Origin: an uncultured Selenomonadaceae bacterium
Lineage (GTDB): Bacteria > Bacillota > Negativicutes > Selenomonadales > Selenomonadaceae
Length of the DNA: 36,620 bases
Reading direction: 5' to 3'
Assembly (NCBI GenBank): GCA_905234365.1
Contig: CAJOHI010000011.1
Coordinates: forward strand, 1 to 36,620
In this document: positions 2,350-26,402 of the stretch, one piece after another
Layout of the letters: every line of letters starts with the position of its first letter
Position numbering within the stretch: position 1 is the stretch's first letter
The notes under the pieces: generated by a model
Told to the model about the DNA's origin: nothing
Database searches by the model: none
Seen by the model: only the letters and a program-made list of their open reading frames with translations
Made by a program: the position numbers and the translations under genes

Positions 2350-3839
2350 ATGTTTGATCGTAAAAAAATTATTAATCAAATAAACGAACTTCAAAAATTT
2401 TCTTCGCAACACAATTTGCTTTACGTTGCAGGAATAGTTAATATCGGCTTGCCATTTGCAATTCTTAATAAGCTTAAAATCAATTTAAAGGGAATTCTGT
2501 CACTTAACAATACTACCCCCCCCCTCAGGTTTCCAATTTAACACAATTTAACTTTCCTGTTATACAAATTAGTGAATTGCTTAATGCCCCTTCTTTGGTA
2601 TCATCAAACAACATTGGAATAGTTCTTTTTGATGGAGAAAAACGTAATAGCAATAATCTATTCATTAAAATCAATCTAAATGGTCATCTTGTTCAGATAC
2701 CGGTGTTTGCAATCGAAATAAATGATGCTTCCATAATGTTTGACATTATTAATGCAAATGAGATAATCAATCAGCAACAAATGATTTATGGTTTCACAAA
2801 TATAAAAAAGATGTTGCAGCATCTTTTCAGAGGATTTAATGCAATATCAACGGAGCATGAATTACTATTTTTTATGCATATCAATAGGCAATTCAAATAT
2901 GCGCCGGTATTTCCAATTACAGATACTGCCATTATAATAACAGGACTTATTGAATACGACGATGATATGACGTTGAAAACTGCAATCATGTATCGAAAAT
3001 GGTATCCAAATATTCCGATTATAGTTTCAACTTGGAAAGATCAGCCAACTAAGGAATTTAAAAAAATTTTATCTCAACACAATATTAAAGTTCTCGGCAA
3101 TAATTATCCTAAAGTTCATGAGAGTATCAATTTTCAGTTGGAAGTCACTCGTCGTGCGATAGAACTTGTCAAAAAAAATAAAAATATTAATTACGTTATA
3201 AGAACACGTACTGATTGGAGCATTAATAAACCAGATTTTCTTATATATCTCAAAAATTTATGCAAACAATTTCCTGCTGGTACTCCTAACATGAAGGAAA
3301 GAATTATTTCATTAGGTGGTGAATGTGGACACAAGTTTGTTCCGTTTCATGCAAGTGATTTTTTAGTTTTTGGAAATATAAGTGATATGTATAACATGTA
3401 TTCAATACCTCAACAATCAGAAAGAAATCCTTATGGCTATCGTCATTTAAGTCGAATGTATCCATTGAAAGAAAAATTGGGTTATTATGAACTTTTAAAT
3501 CCTTTTAAATTGAAGAATGATCCTAAATTTAGAGAAAAATTTTCAAAATATAAACGACTTATTGATAAGTCTACAAGTGGTGGTGGTGAAACTTATCTCC
3601 ATAGAATTTTTTATGAAACCTATATTGCAAAGATAGATCATGAGCATTTTTTTGAGGCTTATGAGGATTATCTCAAACGATGTGCAATTATCATTGATCC
3701 TACTCAACTTTTAACTTGTTTTCCAAAATATGAACAATCATATAGATATGAACTTTATCAATGTTATCAATATCCTACAAGTGGTGGATTGGATTTTGCA
3801 ACTTGGCTTGAACTTTATCTTGAATGGAAAAATTCTTAA
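2350..3839 (+). pseudogene. WavE-like polysaccharide synthesis protein, frame-disrupted at a C9 tract (probable phase-OFF state)
   Basis: ORF 2350-2541 and ORF 2577-3839 are consecutive parts of one paralogue of the intact ORF 21422-22882 (shared DTAIxIxG..TxKTAxxYRxxYPNIPIxxSTWK). C7 or C10 gives a continuous ORF: ...NNTTPPPQVSNLTQFNFPVIQISELLNAPSL... Confidence 0.85.
2516..2524 (+). repeat. Poly-C (C9) homopolymer tract in coding sequence
   Basis: Direct reading: tacta CCCCCCCCC tcaggt. Confidence 0.95.
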
Positions 3840-18049: not shown

Positions 18050-18078
18050 TTGACTTTCTTTTGGCATTTTGTTATATT
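18050..18078 (+). promoter_or_regulatory. Sigma-70-type promoter for the glycan-modification operon
   Basis: TTGACT (18050-18055) - 17 bp - TATATT (18073-18078). Confidence 0.7.
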
Positions 18079-18117
18079 AATGAAAATTTTAGTTTCATTT
18101 TTGTTAGGTGTTAAGAA

Positions 18118-18206
18118 TGTATTTTTGTAATGAATTAAAAAATTATAATGATTTAGTTTTAATGTTATCATTTAAAAATGAAATTTACATGGAGGGGGGG
18201 GGGTAA
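18118..18206 (+). CDS. Short leader ORF (29 codons in the present frame) containing a G10 tract
   Basis: SD-like ttaggtgttaaga then ATG TAT TTT TGT AAT GAA...ATG GAG GGG GGG GGG TAA. Frame and end depend on tract length. Confidence 0.5.
18194..18203 (+). repeat. Poly-G (G10) homopolymer tract
   Basis: Direct reading: acatgga GGGGGGGGGG taaaac. Confidence 0.95.
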
Positions 18207-18238
18207 AACTAACCATAATCTCAATTTGTTTTGTTGTA

Positions 18239-18272
18239 CAGCTCTTTTTGTGTTGAAAAGAGTTGTTTTTTT
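18239..18272 (+). terminator. Intrinsic terminator/attenuator-like hairpin between leader ORF and GDPD gene
   Basis: Stem CAGCTCTTTT (18239-18248) / AAAAGAGTTG (18256-18265), loop TGTGTTG, then TTTTTTT (18266-18272). Confidence 0.75.
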
Positions 18273-18304
18273 GTTTGTAAATATTCAGATTGGAGGCGAG
18301 GGCA

Positions 18305-18937
18305 ATTAATATTTTGTGTCATCGTGGAGTTTGGCATTCCAAAGAAGAAAAAAATACCTTATTGGCTTTGAAACGTTCCCTTGAATTAAATTACGGATTT
18401 GAAAGTGACGTTCGCGATTATTGCGGAAAATTGGTAATTTCACATGATATGGCTGATGAAAATTCACCTGCACTTGAAAATGTTCTGAACCTTCTGGCTG
18501 AAACTGATGACAGATATTGCTTTGCAATTAATATAAAAGCTGACGGCCTAGTATATCCATTGAAAGAACTTTTGCAACATTATGGTTTAAAAAATTATTT
18601 TACTTTTGATATGTCATTACCTCAAATGATATGGTATAAGAATGCAGGTTTAAAGTTTTTCACACGACAAAGTGAGTTTGAAAAAATTCCGCTTTTATAT
18701 GATGAGGCAACAGGTGTATGGTTAGATACTTTTGAATCAGATGATTGGCTGACGATTGAATTAATCAATAAACATTTGAAAAACGGCAAAAAAGTTTGTA
18801 TAGTTTCGCCTGAACTTCATGGCAGAGCTCCACAAAAACTTTGGTCAAAATTAAAACCATTGAAAAATCCTAATTTGTATATTTGCACGGATTTGTCAAC
18901 AGAAATTAAAGATTTTTTTGGGAGGTGTCAATGTTGA
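18305..18937 (+). CDS. Glycerophosphodiester phosphodiesterase (GDPD)-like protein
   Basis: INILCHRGVWHSKEEKNTLLALKRSLELNYGFESDVRDYCGKLVISHD. Start uncertain: SD GGAGG at 18292-18296 points to ATT at 18305; the track's TTG at 18290 lies upstream of the SD. Confidence 0.75.
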   Translation: MNILCHRGVWHSKEEKNTLLALKRSLELNYGFESDVRDYCGKLVISHDMADENSPALENVLNLLAETDDRYCFAINIKADGLVYPLKELLQHYGLKNYFTFDMSLPQMIWYKNAGLKFFTRQSEFEKIPLLYDEATGVWLDTFESDDWLTIELINKHLKNGKKVCIVSPELHGRAPQKLWSKLKPLKNPNLYICTDLSTEIKDFFGRCQC

Positions 18938-19575
18938 AAATTAAAGCAATTATCTTTGACATGGACGGCGTTTTAATTGAAGCAAAAGATTGGCATTATG
19001 AAGCATTAAATAAAGCATTAAGGCTGTTTGGATATACAATCAGTCGCTATGAGCATTTGGTAACTTATGACGGATTGCCAACACGCCAAAAACTGGAAAT
19101 GTTGACGATTGAACGTAATCTTCCAAGAGCGTTACACGGTTTTATAAATGAAATGAAACAGATTTATACAATGGAGATTATTTATCAAAAATGCAAGCCA
19201 ACATTTTATCATGAATATGCACTTTCAAAACTCAAATCAGAAGGCTATAGATTGGCAGTAGCTTCAAATTCGATTCGTAATTCGGTTGAAATGATGATGG
19301 AAAAGAGCCGTCTTTCACAATATTTAGAGTTTATGTTAAGCAATCAAGATGTTACAAAGTCAAAACCGGATCCAGAAATTTATTTAACATCGATTTCAAA
19401 ACTTGGATTAGAACCTTTGGAGTGTTTAATAGTTGAGGATAATCCTAACGGCATTAAGGCAGCAAAGGCTTCAGGTGGACATGTTTATCAAGTTGAAAAT
19501 GTCAGAGATGTAAATTATCAAGCGATAAAAGCAGCAATAAAACAAGCTGAAGAAGGAAGTGAAAAATTAAAATGA
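18931..19575 (+). CDS. HAD-superfamily (subfamily IA) phosphatase
   Basis: AIIFDMDGVLIEAKDWHYEAL, LAVASNSIRNSVE, KSKPDPEIYL, LIVEDNPNGIKAAKASG; ATG at 18931 after gggaggtgtca. Confidence 0.9.
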   Translation: MLKIKAIIFDMDGVLIEAKDWHYEALNKALRLFGYTISRYEHLVTYDGLPTRQKLEMLTIERNLPRALHGFINEMKQIYTMEIIYQKCKPTFYHEYALSKLKSEGYRLAVASNSIRNSVEMMMEKSRLSQYLEFMLSNQDVTKSKPDPEIYLTSISKLGLEPLECLIVEDNPNGIKAAKASGGHVYQVENVRDVNYQAIKAAIKQAEEGSEKLK

Positions 19576-20339
19576 ATGTTGTAATTCCAATGGCAGGAGA
19601 CAGTAAAATTTTTAAAGATTCAGGTTTCAAATACAATAAAAACTTCACTGAAATAAATCGAAAACCGTTATTTCAACATGTGTGTGAATCCGTGCTCAAA
19701 TTACAGGCAAACAAGTTTATATTTATCGTAAATCAAGAAGACGCACGCAAATATCATATTGATCGTTCATTGAAACTGCTTTCGCCGAAGTGTCATATAG
19801 TGGTAACGGAAGGCAAAACGGCCGGTGCAGCATGTAGCGTTCTTTTGGCAGCGGAACTCATAGATAACGAGGAAGAATTAATCATAAATAACGGTGATAT
19901 GATATTGGAATTAGATGTTCCGGCTATAATTGACAAGTTTCGTGCGGCAAATTGGGACGGTGGGATAATCACTTTTGAATCAGTTCACCCTCGTTGGTCA
20001 TTCGTTAGATTAGATGAAAACGATTATGTCATTGAAACTGCCGAAAAAAATCCTATCAGCAATTACGCAACGACAGGAGTTTATTATTTTAAACACGGTT
20101 CAGATTTTATATTTGGTGCTAAAGAGATGATTCGCAAAGATTCTAACGTTGAAGGCAATTATTATGTTTGTCCGGCGTACAACGAAATGATACTAAAACA
20201 AAAGATTATTGGTTGTTACAAAATAGATAATTCCCTTTATCACCCGTTGACAACACCAAAAGAAGTTGACGAGTATGAAGAATATCTAAAAGCAAATGAA
20301 AGACGAGGTTGTAACAGTGAAAAGTTCCAAATTGAGTGA
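19572..20339 (+). CDS. Nucleotidyltransferase-fold (NTP_transferase-like) protein, degenerate N-terminal signature
   Basis: Paralogue of 20668-21417: MNVVIPMAGDSKIF...TEGKTAGAACSVLLAAELIDNEEELIINNGDMIL. Overlaps the upstream HAD gene at ATGA. Confidence 0.8.
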   Translation: MNVVIPMAGDSKIFKDSGFKYNKNFTEINRKPLFQHVCESVLKLQANKFIFIVNQEDARKYHIDRSLKLLSPKCHIVVTEGKTAGAACSVLLAAELIDNEEELIINNGDMILELDVPAIIDKFRAANWDGGIITFESVHPRWSFVRLDENDYVIETAEKNPISNYATTGVYYFKHGSDFIFGAKEMIRKDSNVEGNYYVCPAYNEMILKQKIIGCYKIDNSLYHPLTTPKEVDEYEEYLKANERRGCNSEKFQIE

Positions 20340-20643
20340 TATGGTGCGCGGTTGGTTTGTAGGTAATTTTGATCCTACACTTTATCGTACTAATGATGTT
20401 GAAGTTGCGGTGAAAACTTATAAAGCCGGAGATATGGAAAGCGCACATTATCACAAGATCGCAACAGAAATAACTGTTGTAAATGAAGGTAATATCCGAA
20501 TGTTTAACAAAGTTTGGAAACGTGGTGACATAATCGTTGCCGAACCGAATGACGTTACGAGTTTTGAGGCTTTGACGGAAGCGGTTTTGACGGTTGTCAA
20601 ATTACCTGGTGCAAATAATGATAAATATCCGGCTGAAGAATAA
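20317..20643 (+). CDS. Cupin-like protein
   Basis: AVKTYKAGDMESAHYHKIATEITVVNEGNIRMFNKVWKRGDIIVAEPNDVTSFEA. GTG at 20317 with upstream gagg fits better than ATG at 20296. Confidence 0.65.
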   Translation: MKSSKLSDMVRGWFVGNFDPTLYRTNDVEVAVKTYKAGDMESAHYHKIATEITVVNEGNIRMFNKVWKRGDIIVAEPNDVTSFEALTEAVLTVVKLPGANNDKYPAEE

Positions 20644-20667
20644 TCATTGAATATGGAGTGATAAAAA

Positions 20668-21417
20668 GTGTTAAATATTGTCATACCTATGGCAGGACGT
20701 GGCAGCAGATTTGCAAATGCTGGTTATCAAATGCCAAAACCACTTATTGATGTTCATGGTCATTATATGATTGAATGTGTAACGGAAAATATAAGACCGA
20801 GTAGCGAACATCGTTTTATTTATCTTTGCTTGACAGAGCACCTTCAAAAATATGACTTGGAAACAAAACTCAATTATATTTCACCTAATTGTATAGTGGT
20901 GCCGGTTGACAAAGTTACTGAAGGCGCAGCTTGCACCGTGTTGCTTGCTGAAAAATTTATTGACAACAATGAGCCTTTAATGATTGCAAATTCCGATCAG
21001 TACGTTGACATTAATATTAATGATTATCTTGCAGCAGGTAAAGGATACGACGGTCTTATAATGACAATGTTTGCTGACGATAATAAGTGGTCGTTCATAA
21101 AATATGACGAATCACGAAATGTAACAATGGTGCGTGAAAAAGAAGTCATTTCAAATGAGGCAACTGTTGGAATTTATAATTTTACACATGGTTGCGATTA
21201 TGTTAAATATGCTCATGAAATGATTGATTCCAATCTTCGTGTCAATAATGAATTTTACGTAGCGCCGGTTTACAATATGTTAATTGATGACGGTAAGAAA
21301 ATTACTTTTTACAATATCGGTTCATTAGAGGCAGGAATGTATGGGCTTGGTGTGCCAGAGGATTTAAATAAATTTTTAAACAATCCTTTGTCAAAGAAAA
21401 TTTTTAAAGGAAGATAA
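20668..21417 (+). CDS. Sugar/alcohol-phosphate nucleotidyltransferase (NTP_transferase family)
   Basis: MLNIVIPMAGRGSRFANAGYQMPKPLIDVHGHYMIECV...VTEGAACTVLLAEKFIDNNEPLMIANSDQYV. Confidence 0.88.
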   Translation: MLNIVIPMAGRGSRFANAGYQMPKPLIDVHGHYMIECVTENIRPSSEHRFIYLCLTEHLQKYDLETKLNYISPNCIVVPVDKVTEGAACTVLLAEKFIDNNEPLMIANSDQYVDININDYLAAGKGYDGLIMTMFADDNKWSFIKYDESRNVTMVREKEVISNEATVGIYNFTHGCDYVKYAHEMIDSNLRVNNEFYVAPVYNMLIDDGKKITFYNIGSLEAGMYGLGVPEDLNKFLNNPLSKKIFKGR

Positions 21418-21421
21418 TTTA

Positions 21422-22882
21422 ATGTTTGATATAATAAAAGTAAATCGACTTGTTGAAATGACAGAGCGTCTTTCAAAGGCATATCCAAAAGTTTATTTGG
21501 TACTTGAAGAATTTAATATTGATGCAATTCCAATGTTAAAGTACGCAAAATTTAATCTTCGAGCGGTTTTACAAGAAGCACAAGAATCAATATCAAAAAA
21601 CATATTGGGCGTTCCATTGATGAGGACTGTCGACGCCGTAAAATATTTTGACCGCAAGTCAATGATAGTTATTGTAAAAAAATCGCCATTAGCCGAACCG
21701 CTTAGAGAAATTACAACTAACGTTGCAAATAAACAAATTACATTACCGGCATTAATACTTTCAACAGAAGAAGTAAGTGCCATGCTTGATAGAATGACGC
21801 TTATGAATTTGTATAATCAATATAACATAAACGGCGTAAATATTATTGGCAATCAGTTGATAAGGTTAATGCGCGGATTACAAACATTTACCGGAGTTGA
21901 TTATCATTTAAAGTACCAATTATATGGACCGGAAAATAATATTGCCAAGATTTTTGATATAGATGACACGGCTATTGTAATTCAAGGTCCGTTAATGCAT
22001 GAAAATAATTTTACAATTAAAACCGCTCAAACTTATCGCACACGCTATCCAAACATTCCTATAGTTATATCTACATGGAAAGGCGAGGCCAATGATGACT
22101 TCCGAAATGCATGTAAAAATATTTCTGTGGTACTGCTGGAAAATGATCTGCCTGAAGACGAGGCTTATTCTCACGTAAATCATCAAATTAAAAGTTCATA
22201 TGAAGGCGTTAATTATATAGTCAAGAATACGAATGTAAAATATATTTTAAAAACTCGAACAGATCAAAGGATTAATCGTCCTGATTTTTTGATGTATTTT
22301 AGAAATTTACAAAAAGCATTTCCGCCGATTGATAACAAATTAGAAGGTCGATTAGTTGTCATAAATAATGCAAATACGCACATTTGGATTCCATTTTTTA
22401 TTAGTGATTTTTTGGCTTTCGGTTTTACATCGGACATATTAAAACTTTATTCTTTGAAACTTCAAGATACAAAGAGCGGCGAATCAAAATATTTTTCTCA
22501 TCATAGAAACAGATTTGAATATCATATCAGAGCAGTTCTTGATAAATCAAAATTAAATTTCTACGCTTTTCTGCCTCTTATTTCATCTTTGTCTAAACAA
22601 AATCGGAAACTATATAATTTCAATAGAATGAATAAACGTTTTTTTACTCCGGAAAGTTATATAATGAAAAGTTTTTATGAAAAACATATTGCACCTATAG
22701 ATTATACAAAATATCTTGAAACTTATTGGAAGTTTATGCGTGATTATCTGATAGTTGCAGATAGTGAAACGTTTCTTTTTGATTGGCAAAAATATAACAC
22801 ATATTTTACATATCAAGACTTTGAGGGAAGTCATTTCGATCATGGAAAATGGCTACACTTGTACAACAATCTTAATATTTAA
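21422..22882 (+). CDS. WavE-family polysaccharide/LPS synthesis protein (intact paralogue of 2350-3839)
   Basis: IDDTAIVIQGPLMHENNFTIKTAQTYRTRYPNIPIVISTWKGE...YILKTRTDQRINRPDFLMYFRNL. Confidence 0.85.
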   Translation: MFDIIKVNRLVEMTERLSKAYPKVYLVLEEFNIDAIPMLKYAKFNLRAVLQEAQESISKNILGVPLMRTVDAVKYFDRKSMIVIVKKSPLAEPLREITTNVANKQITLPALILSTEEVSAMLDRMTLMNLYNQYNINGVNIIGNQLIRLMRGLQTFTGVDYHLKYQLYGPENNIAKIFDIDDTAIVIQGPLMHENNFTIKTAQTYRTRYPNIPIVISTWKGEANDDFRNACKNISVVLLENDLPEDEAYSHVNHQIKSSYEGVNYIVKNTNVKYILKTRTDQRINRPDFLMYFRNLQKAFPPIDNKLEGRLVVINNANTHIWIPFFISDFLAFGFTSDILKLYSLKLQDTKSGESKYFSHHRNRFEYHIRAVLDKSKLNFYAFLPLISSLSKQNRKLYNFNRMNKRFFTPESYIMKSFYEKHIAPIDYTKYLETYWKFMRDYLIVADSETFLFDWQKYNTYFTYQDFEGSHFDHGKWLHLYNNLNI

Positions 22883-22938: not shown

Positions 22939-23053
22939 GTACGATAGATTCAGTTAAAATTATTATGTAAGGCAGGAAAAAATTAATGCGGTGTTGAATA
23001 TTTTTATAAATGTTTTGACATCAAAGCACGAAAGCGATAAAGAGGGCGATATA

Positions 23054-24739
23054 ATGATTAACGAGACACTGCAAAAATTATTGATTGTTGATGAATCTGA
23101 AAACAATCGCATTGCTATTAAAAATATTTTACAAGATGAATATGAATTTGTAGAAGCTGCAAGCATTGAAGAAGCAATTAACACAATCGAAAGATGTACG
23201 ATTGATGTTGTGCTTGCTGATTTAAAATTTATATCGCAACTCAAAGACAATGATAAAATTTTACAAATTCCTCTTATCGCAATGGTAGATTCAAGTGATG
23301 TTGACGCCGGAGCAATAGCTATAGAGAGCGGTGCTTTTGAAGTTATTGCAAAGCCTCTTAATCAGACCTTAGTAAGTTATCGGATTCACAATGTAATTAA
23401 ACATTTTAAAGACGCTGAGAGTGTGCAGATTTTGAAGGATAAGCAAATTATTGAAATGCACAAATATGTTGAAATGGACGCTTTGACAGGACTTATCAAT
23501 CGTGAGACTTTTTACAAGCGTGCAGCGGCACTTATGCAGGTAAACATTGAAACTAAATATTATATAATTTACTTTGACATATCTTGTTTCAAGGCTATTA
23601 ATGATTTGTTTCACATTGAGACTGGTAATTTGATTTTAAGGACAGCAGCAAATTATTTTAGAACGGTCATTGATCCTAAAGTTGGATTATGCAGCAGAAT
23701 TGAGGCAGATCATTTTATTATTTGCGTTCCGCAGGATAAAATTGACATTGAAAAATTGATTATCGGTCTTGATGTTACAGTTCAGGCACTTGGCATTGGA
23801 CATAATATTTTATTCTATGCTGGAATTTATCCGGTCAATAATCCTTCGCTTCCGGTCGATCAGATGTGTGATCGTGCGAATATGGCGCTTCGTAAAATTA
23901 AAGGCAATTATATGAATCGCTACGCTTATTATGATGCCGGAATGCGCGAATTAATGTTACAGGATCAAATGATTGTCAGAGATATGGAAACGGCACTTCA
24001 AGAAAATCAATTTTCGATCTTTTTGCAACCGATTTATGATATAAAGCGCAACACGATAAACAGTGCTGAAGCGCTTGTACGTTGGTTTCACCCGATCAAT
24101 GGCATGATTTCACCTGGTAAATTTATACCGGTTTTTGAGCGAAACGGATTTATTGTTAAGACTGACAGATTTGTTTGGGAAGAAGTTTGTAAATTTATTC
24201 AACGTCAGCGCGAGGAAACGGGCGAGGTCACACCTGTCTCCGTTAATGTGTCGCGTCTGAACTTTTATAACCTTGACCTGTTGGAATTTTTACTTGGACT
24301 ACTTGAAAGGTACGAACTTGAATCTTGGATGTTGAAACTTGAAATAACTGAAAGTGCATATATGGACAATTCTCATCAACTCATGTCAATTATAAAGGTC
24401 TTTCGCGAAGAAGGTTTTCCGGTACTTATGGACGATTTTGGCAGTGGTTACTCGTCGCTCAATATGCTTAAAAATCTGCCGGTTGACGTATTGAAAGTTG
24501 ACATGGCGTTTGTACGCGAATTGGAAGAATCGGAACGTGCTTATATGATCTTGAAATTTATTATGAATTTAGCTAAAGATTTAGGAATGGACGTGATAGT
24601 TGAAGGCGTTGAGACGAAAAAGCAGTTGGATTATCTTGTACATCTCGGTGCTGATAAGATTCAAGGGTACTACTTCTCGAAGCCGCTGCCTGTACCGGAA
24701 TTTAAAAAGTTGTTAAAAGAAAATAAAATTTGTAAGTGA
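23054..24739 (+). CDS. Receiver - degenerate GGDEF - EAL protein (predicted c-di-GMP phosphodiesterase)
   Basis: LLIVDESENNR receiver-like N-terminus; SRIEADHF in place of GGDEF; EAL domain SAEALVRWFHP, LEITESAYMDN, LMDDFGSGYSSLNML, DVIVEGVETKKQLDYL, QGYYFSKPLP. ATG at 23054 after gagggcgat. Confidence 0.88.
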   Translation: MINETLQKLLIVDESENNRIAIKNILQDEYEFVEAASIEEAINTIERCTIDVVLADLKFISQLKDNDKILQIPLIAMVDSSDVDAGAIAIESGAFEVIAKPLNQTLVSYRIHNVIKHFKDAESVQILKDKQIIEMHKYVEMDALTGLINRETFYKRAAALMQVNIETKYYIIYFDISCFKAINDLFHIETGNLILRTAANYFRTVIDPKVGLCSRIEADHFIICVPQDKIDIEKLIIGLDVTVQALGIGHNILFYAGIYPVNNPSLPVDQMCDRANMALRKIKGNYMNRYAYYDAGMRELMLQDQMIVRDMETALQENQFSIFLQPIYDIKRNTINSAEALVRWFHPINGMISPGKFIPVFERNGFIVKTDRFVWEEVCKFIQRQREETGEVTPVSVNVSRLNFYNLDLLEFLLGLLERYELESWMLKLEITESAYMDNSHQLMSIIKVFREEGFPVLMDDFGSGYSSLNMLKNLPVDVLKVDMAFVRELEESERAYMILKFIMNLAKDLGMDVIVEGVETKKQLDYLVHLGADKIQGYYFSKPLPVPEFKKLLKENKICK

Positions 24740-24751
24740 GGGTTAAGTCTT

Positions 24752-25608
24752 ATGAATCATATTAATGAAATTGTTTTAGATTTTGAGCCACGAAAAAATG
24801 TATTATCTAAAATTCCAGTAGTTCCTAATGAACCAGAGATGTCTGAATTTGAATCAGCGTTTCTTTGTGGTCTCTTGAAGAAATTTAAACCAAAAAAAGT
24901 TCTTGAAATTGGTGTAGCAGGTGGAGCTACTACCGCAATAATGCTACAATGTTTAGAGGATATAAAAGTAAGTAAGGGGGGGGGGAGAGAGATTATTACA
25001 TGTACTCGGTAGATTTTTCTCAAAAGTTTTACCGGGATACAAGTAAACAAAGTGGTTTTATCGCAGAAGAAGCTAAAAAATTATTAAATTTGAAAAATCA
25101 TAAATTTTATTTAGGTGCTGGAGTAACATCATTTTTAGAGGAAATAGGAAAAGATATAGATTTTGTTATGTTAGATACCATGCACATAACTCCAGGCGAA
25201 ATTTTAGATTTTTTAGTAATTCTTCCTTATTTGAAAAGTAATGCTGTTGTTTGTTTACATGATGTAGCACTTTGTCAACGTGGTCCAGAAGCCAGGAATG
25301 CTACTGCAACCGGTTTGTTATTCAGTTCTGTAACGGCTGATAAAATGATCAATTTGATTCCAGATGATGGAAATATTAAATTTTTGTATCCTAATATCGG
25401 TGCATTTCAAATCAATCAATATACATTAAAAGAAATCATTAATGTTGTGATGGCACTTATGATACCCTGGTCGTATGTGCCTCAAAATATTGAATTGAAA
25501 AATTATACAAAATTTATACATCATTACTATGATAAAAATATTTGTAGTATTTATGATGAAATGGTAAAAATGAATCTTTATAACATGATTATGACGTCAT
25601 ATAAATAA
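24752..25608 (+). pseudogene. Class I SAM-methyltransferase / cephalosporin-hydroxylase-like gene, frame-disrupted at a G10 tract (probable phase-OFF state)
   Basis: N-part ORF 24752-25012 (KKVLEIGVAGGATTAIMLQCLEDIKVSKGGG) and C-part ORF 25000-25608 (MYSVDFSQKFYRDTSKQSGFI...DFVMLDTMHITPGEILDFLVILPYLK). G8 or G11 gives continuous ...VSKGG(G)ERDYYMYSVDFSQKF... Confidence 0.85.
24976..24985 (+). repeat. Poly-G (G10) homopolymer tract in coding sequence
   Basis: Direct reading: agtaa GGGGGGGGGG agagag. Confidence 0.95.
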
Positions 25609-25643
25609 AAGATTAAATTAATTTATGGTTGGGGGTAATTTTA

Positions 25644-26402
25644 ATGCCGGCTATTAAAAAGGAAAATTTTGGAACACTTAGCAACGGACAAACGGCGTCA
25701 ATTTACACACTTCGCAACAACAAGGGCAATGAGCTTAAAGTCACTGATTATGGTGCTCGTGTCGTGTCTTTGAGGTTTCGCAATAAGGATTTTGAAAACA
25801 AATTTGTGCTTGTTGGTTATGATAATGTCGCTGATTATGAAAAAGATGACAAAGGTCGCGGCGTAGTTTATGTTGACGGCATTGAAAATCTTGACAAAAA
25901 GATTTGGGATACTTCTGAGCATGTTGAGGGCGTCACTTTTTCGACGAGAGACGGCGACAAGGAAATTTCTGTCACTTATAGTATTTCAAACGACAATGAG
26001 ATTAGCGTCAAATATGAAGGCAAGGGCGTCAACGATGTTACATCTTCGTTTACTTTCAGTGCCGACGTGATGACGAATCCTGACTTTAAAATCTTTTCTG
26101 ACGAGTTTAAAGGCGGCAATTCCGGTGCATGGACACTTATTAATAAGCCGGCTGAAGTTGAATTTGTTGAAGGCATGTTTGGCTTTGATATTGGCTGTCC
26201 GATTGATTATTATGACGCAGGTCTCAAAAATGCGGCTGAAATTCTTTCTGATGAAGCGAATATGTTGTTGCAGATTTATGCCAATCAAGATAAAATTCAC
26301 GTTGACAATGCTGACGGTGGTTTTGCGATTAAGACTTCGGGCAGTAAGTTTGATAACGGCGTAATTAAATCGCAAACAGTTTACGTTATTAAAAATAAAT
26401 AA
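25644..26402 (+). CDS. Aldose 1-epimerase (GalM)-fold protein, short and divergent
   Basis: FGTLSNGQTASIYTLRNNKGNELKVTDYGARVVSLRF...FVLVGYDNVADYEKD; ATG at 25644 (MPAIKKENFG). Confidence 0.7.
   Translation: MPAIKKENFGTLSNGQTASIYTLRNNKGNELKVTDYGARVVSLRFRNKDFENKFVLVGYDNVADYEKDDKGRGVVYVDGIENLDKKIWDTSEHVEGVTFSTRDGDKEISVTYSISNDNEISVKYEGKGVNDVTSSFTFSADVMTNPDFKIFSDEFKGGNSGAWTLINKPAEVEFVEGMFGFDIGCPIDYYDAGLKNAAEILSDEANMLLQIYANQDKIHVDNADGGFAIKTSGSKFDNGVIKSQTVYVIKNK

Follow-up and report, generated by a model that had tools for sequence, protein, structure and literature searches.

When a run of ten guanines breaks the reading frame of a methyltransferase gene, is the gene dead, or is it a switch caught in one of its two positions? 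The question is raised by a locus on a 36,620-nucleotide stretch of DNA (the window) from an uncultured member of the Selenomonadaceae. The genome, assembled to 2.30 Mb in 148 contigs, is 89% complete, and the window corresponds to its contig C11. As assembled, the frame that opens at the ATG at 24752 ends in a TAG at 25010–25012 after 86 codons; the -1 frame has no stop between the tract and a TAA at 25606–25608. The elements of the locus are as follows:

24738..24742, + strand: GAGGG, a Shine-Dalgarno-like motif read from the sequence, 9 nt 5' of the ATG and overlapping the stop of the upstream EAL gene
24752..25012, + strand: assembled (OFF) frame, 86 aa, matching family profile positions 1–73
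24902..24925, + strand: SAM-binding motif I, LEIGVAGG, from the translation and alignment with intact homologues
24976..24985, + strand: G10 tract, the proposed slipped-strand switch, from the sequence; on the homologue model it falls in the loop that joins helix A to strand 2
24986..25608, + strand: downstream methyltransferase part, open in the -1 frame, matching family profile positions 73–279 (E 6e-87)
25171..25185, + strand: LDTMH, the family-invariant L-D-T-x-H of core strand 4, from alignments
25255..25263, + strand: LHD, with the family-invariant H-D, from alignments and a fold match to metal-dependent O-methyltransferases

Read from 24974, the tract and its context are aaG-GGG-GGG-GGG-aga. 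Tract lengths of the class 3n+2 (8, 11) alone join the two frames, giving 286 codons including the stop. Checking the frames on both sides shows that a change of a single base toggles between a truncated product and a complete one, as found in intact homologues. The original prediction, that G10 shifts the frame into the TAG at 25010–25012 and that G11 or G8 restores one ORF of about 286 codons, is borne out by sequence and translation, and its coordinates, product and size are correct. The 86-residue product comprises N-terminal helices, strand 1, the Gly-rich SAM loop, the first helix and a short out-of-frame tail; the downstream part contains strand 2 with SVD, then LDTMH, LHDV and the C-terminal helices. 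A first-order composition model of the window predicts ~0.00003 G/C runs of at least 10 in the methyltransferase gene: G10 is far longer than chance allows. The probability of 210 stop-free codons at the same base composition is ~2e-8.

If the two parts belong to one gene, then relatives should carry them in one frame. The profile of the intact family runs continuously across the break, and a scan of genome contigs at 20 related loci (Anaerovibrio sp. JC8, other Selenomonadales, and a few Clostridia or other MAGs) found a single uninterrupted ORF at 18, in agreement with the prediction of one gene rather than two. Single-ORF, intact homologues occur within the genus as well as in Anaerovibrio sp. 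JC8 and further genomes. Homologues with the two parts as separate genes were looked for, and none was found. The two non-intact loci are L070, which has a C8 tract of its own elsewhere in the gene, and L065, a homologue from a roe deer MAG with a frameshift near the SAM loop (around 2286–2330) and no long G/C tract. At the place of the window's tract, G/C tracts are absent both from the homologues in G020, G010, G015, G033, G017, G021 and G016 and from the contig scan. In the alignment, homologues read LEDIGEPYEMHSVD where the window has LEDIKVSK, the G run and ERDYYMYSVD; judged by this alignment, the G tract is a local insertion in a loop.

Intact homologues match Pfam PF13578 (Methyltransf_24) at 6e-12 to 1e-14 (46.9–55.7 bits, against a cut-off of 26.3), and the downstream fragment of the window alone scores 25.7 bits, just below that cut-off. 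For the fold, an AlphaFold2 model of an intact homologue (19 alignment rows) stands in for the full-length product of the window. The model (pLDDT 92.9) is Rossmann-like, with a strand at 54–58 followed by the SAM loop, a helix at 64–76 after this Gly-rich loop, and a strand at 81–86. The tract of the window maps between residues 76 and 81, in the loop joining the first Rossmann helix to strand 2. On this model, the earlier claim holds that the tract separates the SAM motif from the core strand that follows. A Foldseek search of the PDB finds COMT-type O-methyltransferases (TomG, bacterial COMTs and an Anaplasma O-methyltransferase), with E-values down to 3e-8 and TM-scores of ~0.45–0.6. Like these enzymes, the family has a Gly-rich SAM loop, an acidic end to strand 2, D-T-x-H in strand 4 and a COMT-like order of elements; unlike the solved structures, to which identity is 12–18%, it has additional helices at the N-terminus and a long helical region at the C-terminus.

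Domain match and model together identify the encoded protein as a class I SAM O-methyltransferase of the Methyltransf_24 family with a COMT-like fold. The locus had been described as methyltransferase/hydroxylase-like; of this the methyltransferase stands (Methyltransf_24, ~1e-14, and the COMT-like fold), and the hydroxylase falls away, neither Pfam nor NCBIfam giving a match to a hydroxylase or to the CmcI family. The fold would imply metal dependence, and by analogy with COMT-type enzymes the LHD motif may be a metal or catalytic site. The invariant residues S84, D86, D143, T144, H146, E151, D154, H171 and D172 (numbered as in the homologue) are all encoded 3' of the tract, and the OFF product therefore lacks them. 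No substrate for this Methyltransf_24 subfamily was found in the literature searched.

The neighborhood of the gene bears on both its origin and its likely substrate. The relevant genes in the window are these:

18290..21417, + strand: GDPD-like, HAD, nucleotidyltransferase, small cupin-like and nucleotidyltransferase genes
21422..22882, + strand: WavE family (LPS synthesis) gene (Pfam PF07507, 2e-16)
22991..24739, + strand: response regulator-GGDEF-EAL gene, the left neighbor
25629..26402, + strand: aldose-epimerase-like gene, the right neighbor

In genome G061 the GGDEF-EAL and epimerase-like genes are adjacent, with ~31 bases between them and no methyltransferase; this empty site means that the gene was either inserted in the window or lost in G061. 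Its GC content is 0.29–0.31 and its GC3 0.15–0.21, compared to 0.44–0.47 for sucC, sucD and ileS, and in a tree the window copy groups with the copies of Anaerovibrio and RUG12372 and not with those of its own genus, albeit with support (82–94) that is not strong. Base composition and grouping favor acquisition of the gene. In RUG12372, a rumen member of the Selenomonadaceae (L061), the homologue lies directly 3' of five genes that are 37–69% identical to those at 18290–21417 of the window and in the same order, and it is followed by nucleotide-sugar genes (nucleotidyltransferase, dehydratase and dTDP-sugar epimerase families). The Anaerovibrio sp. JC8 copy (L058) is surrounded by genes for GT2 glycosyltransferases, a sugar epimerase/dehydratase and a DegT aminotransferase. 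These two gene neighborhoods are the best evidence for a role in glycan synthesis, and neighbors and fold together suggest that the substrate of the methyltransferase is a glycan. A flagellin context upstream of the homologues within the genus, suspected from out-of-frame residues, was rejected: by inspection, the upstream gene encodes an ACT-domain-like protein and the downstream gene DNA polymerase III alpha.

Slippage may not be peculiar to one copy of the family. A second methyltransferase copy, in G020 (L057), has a poly-C tract (C9) of its own at another loop and an open frame; the L070 homologue, from a red deer MAG, has C8 at the same place and is split, its N-terminal part being in another frame. 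At this poly-C tract, as the sequences read, the frame is decided by a one-base difference between genomes. C9 open in one and C8 split in the other indicate, on comparison with the window, that members of the Methyltransf_24 family have gained tracts at different loops.

To place the tract in its genomic setting, G/C tracts were collected by sequence pattern searches. The genome contains 38 of length at least 8 and 20 of length at least 10; the first-order model predicts ~0.09 of the latter in 2.3 Mb. Tracts of at least 10 are present in 59 of 60 genomes of the genus (630 in all, median 6 per genome), compared to 50 in total, with a median of 0, in 60 other genomes of the class. Fifteen tract loci in the genome are split into two frames, the shift being -1 in 10 and +1 in 5, and the number of tract loci read through in frame is similar. 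Such a mixture of split and in-frame loci, with shifts in both directions, is as random slippage would give. Most tract genes are surface-glycan genes: three WavE genes (one at window position 2516), three FkbM methyltransferases, and GT2, GT8 and GT90 glycosyltransferases, together with members of the nucleotidyltransferase, GDP-mannose dehydratase/epimerase and UDP-glucose dehydrogenase families, WcbI, formyl- and acetyltransferases, and radical SAM proteins. In L035, a further methyltransferase-like gene, a G8 splits the frame at the corresponding point of the fold, after the SAM loop and ahead of the strand that follows it. The genome has MutS, which rules out loss of mismatch repair as the cause of tract instability; the tract itself would have to be the source of any instability.

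Some further properties of the tracts are worth recording. The base after the G run is T in 34 of the 38 tracts and A in three, one of them the methyltransferase tract of the window. A conserved repeat element around the tracts was considered and rejected, the flanks being unrelated except for the bases adjoining the run. Among the species representatives no other assembly of this species was seen, and a scan of viral contigs with a flank sequence gave no match. A methyltransferase/kinase-like fusion (L024, on G000:C8) has an in-frame G11 just past its SAM loop, at the same fold place as in the window gene. The longest run seen in the genome, G24, lies at the 3' end of the gene for a citrate lyase ligase domain protein (L033, G000:C21:5291-5314). 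A G11 at L048 (G000:C68:3502-3512) lies between TTGACA and TATGGT/TATAAT-like elements, and promoter-spacer phase variation is possible there.

The window itself holds two other candidate slippage sites. At 2350–3839 a C9 tract (2516–2524) splits a WavE-family gene: the ~55 codons that follow an ATG near 2350 and the WavE part, which runs to 3839, lie in different frames; from its sequence, this is probably a second phase-variable LPS-type gene, OFF as assembled. At 18050–18310 a promoter-like site (18050–18078) precedes a leader ORF that starts at ATG 18117 and holds a G10 (18194–18203); a terminator-like hairpin and T run (18238–18266), whose fold is mildly below that of shuffled sequences (z -1.6), separate it from the glycan operon that begins at 18290. 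Depending on tract length, the leader ends at 18204 (before the hairpin), at 18254 (inside it) or at 18307 (at the start of the operon's first gene), an arrangement that could form a phase-variable attenuator or translational coupler. Homologues of gene 18290 (L102/L104 in G011, L103/L105 in G023) have intragenic C10 and C9 tracts, with matches in two separate frames; in this gene family, too, slippage control possibly acts at different places, in the leader in the window and within the gene in G011 and G023.

Is the break at 24976–24985 perhaps permanent? A decaying gene, with the tract as a fixed frameshift and the downstream part as a relic, would account for the broken frame of the assembly and for the presence of an AT-rich extra gene between two genes that are adjacent in G061. 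However, there is no second lesion: 210 codons are open, every family-invariant downstream residue is kept, and the frame breaks only once, at a type of homopolymer of which the genome has dozens of examples. Decay is thus an unlikely explanation. Alternatively, the DNA might never change, and some full-length enzyme might be made constantly by programmed -1 ribosomal frameshifting or by transcriptional slippage on the G run. The shift required is -1, GGG GGG codons would permit tandem -1 slippage, and some leak is plausible; but five of the 15 split loci need +1 and many tracts are in frame, which points to random lengths and not to one programmed shift, no conserved slippery site was found, and the intact homologues have no tract here. 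Most descriptions of transcriptional slippage, moreover, concern runs of A or T (PMC3711429), and here the run is of G. We regard either form of recoding as quite unlikely. The OFF state is read from one homopolymer in one fragmented assembly, and G10 could have been miscounted: sequencing is prone to error at homopolymers, and the true tract might have a single in-frame length, the gene being simply ON. Yet the tract and its genus-wide recurrence in independent assemblies exceed sequencing error, making this very unlikely, and such an error would alter the state shown and not the nature of the site.

Two further readings concern the product. The downstream part might be a protein in its own right, 202 aa from the ATG at 25000, with the purine-rich tract as ribosome site, working alone or with the N-terminal fragment; this ATG is 10 bases 5' of the TAG and 15 bases 3' of the G run. 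The Met that it encodes, however, is a conserved strand 2 residue of intact homologues (M82), the 202-aa fragment would have neither strand 1 nor the SAM loop, and no related locus has two genes by design; we consider two products highly improbable. Least credible, to the point of being nearly negligible, is a phasevarion, in which the enzyme would methylate DNA and its switching would alter expression genome-wide. Weak matches to a PHROG labeled DNA methyltransferase (best 7e-5) hint at it, but the protein has no DPPY/NPPY-type motif, the place of motif IV in core strand 4 being taken by LDTMH, and DPPY-type motifs with a target recognition domain, by which DNA methyltransferases are recognized, were not found in it. 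Its only Pfam family is Methyltransf_24, its fold matches are to small-molecule O-methyltransferases and the neighbors of its homologues are glycan genes.

We consider it likely that the gene encodes an O-methyltransferase of a surface glycan, that it is phase-variable through slipped-strand mispairing, and that the assembly has caught it in the OFF state; phase variability, as originally proposed, is the most likely reading of the genome-wide and comparative evidence. Under this model a single gene would encode a class I SAM-dependent O-methyltransferase whose task is to decorate a glycan of the cell surface, and slipped-strand mispairing at the poly-G during replication would change the tract by single bases. 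Descendants would then alternate between the full-length enzyme (3n+2) and an 86-residue fragment that keeps the SAM loop and lacks strand 2, the LDTxH and LHD residues and the C-terminal part. With tracts mostly in glycan genes, switching would shuffle the structure of the surface glycan from cell to cell. We infer that slippage would occur within the species, that activity would be lost in the OFF state, and that switching would bring a selective benefit (phage, immune or protist evasion).

Campylobacter jejuni offers the closest parallel. Of the 29 poly-G/C tracts of strain NCTC11168, six lie in capsule genes, and its cj1426 is a poly-G phase-variable capsule heptose 6-O-methyltransferase that switches at ~2-3 x 10^-2 (PMC8437040). 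As in cj1426, an intragenic poly-G would here switch a sugar methyltransferase by frameshift, the sugar substrate of the present enzyme being the one that its context suggests, and, as with the capsule/LOS poly-G genes of NCTC11168, the gene is part of a genome-wide tract set of comparable size. Judged from anatomy and sequence comparison, the locus resembles cj1426 in all testable features. The likeness drawn here is one of switch type, and the host, unlike that of cj1426, is a member of the Selenomonadaceae. As in homopolymeric-tract contingency genes in general (PMC2831843), a homopolymer inside a coding gene makes the product frame-dependent; what distinguishes the present tracts is that they are long G/C runs and that, in this Selenomonadaceae genus of the ruminant gut, they are concentrated in genes for glycans. 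The kind of switch is already known from cj1426; in the open-licence literature no report was found for the Selenomonadaceae, nor any paper on SSR phase variation in Selenomonas or Negativicutes.

Most known poly-G contingency genes come from a small number of mucosal pathogens. Taken together, the data make it probable that the poly-G/C phasome of a ruminant-gut Selenomonadaceae genus is large, reaching tens of switchable surface-glycan genes in each genome of some species, and that its Methyltransf_24 glycan methyltransferase genes have gained tracts independently at different loops of one and the same fold, bringing surface methylation repeatedly under slippage control. The loci form a concrete set, and metagenomes that already exist allow their tract lengths to be read directly. 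Dozens of tracts in the glycan genes of a ruminant-gut commensal would point to pressure on surface glycans from phage, protists or the host outside the setting of disease.
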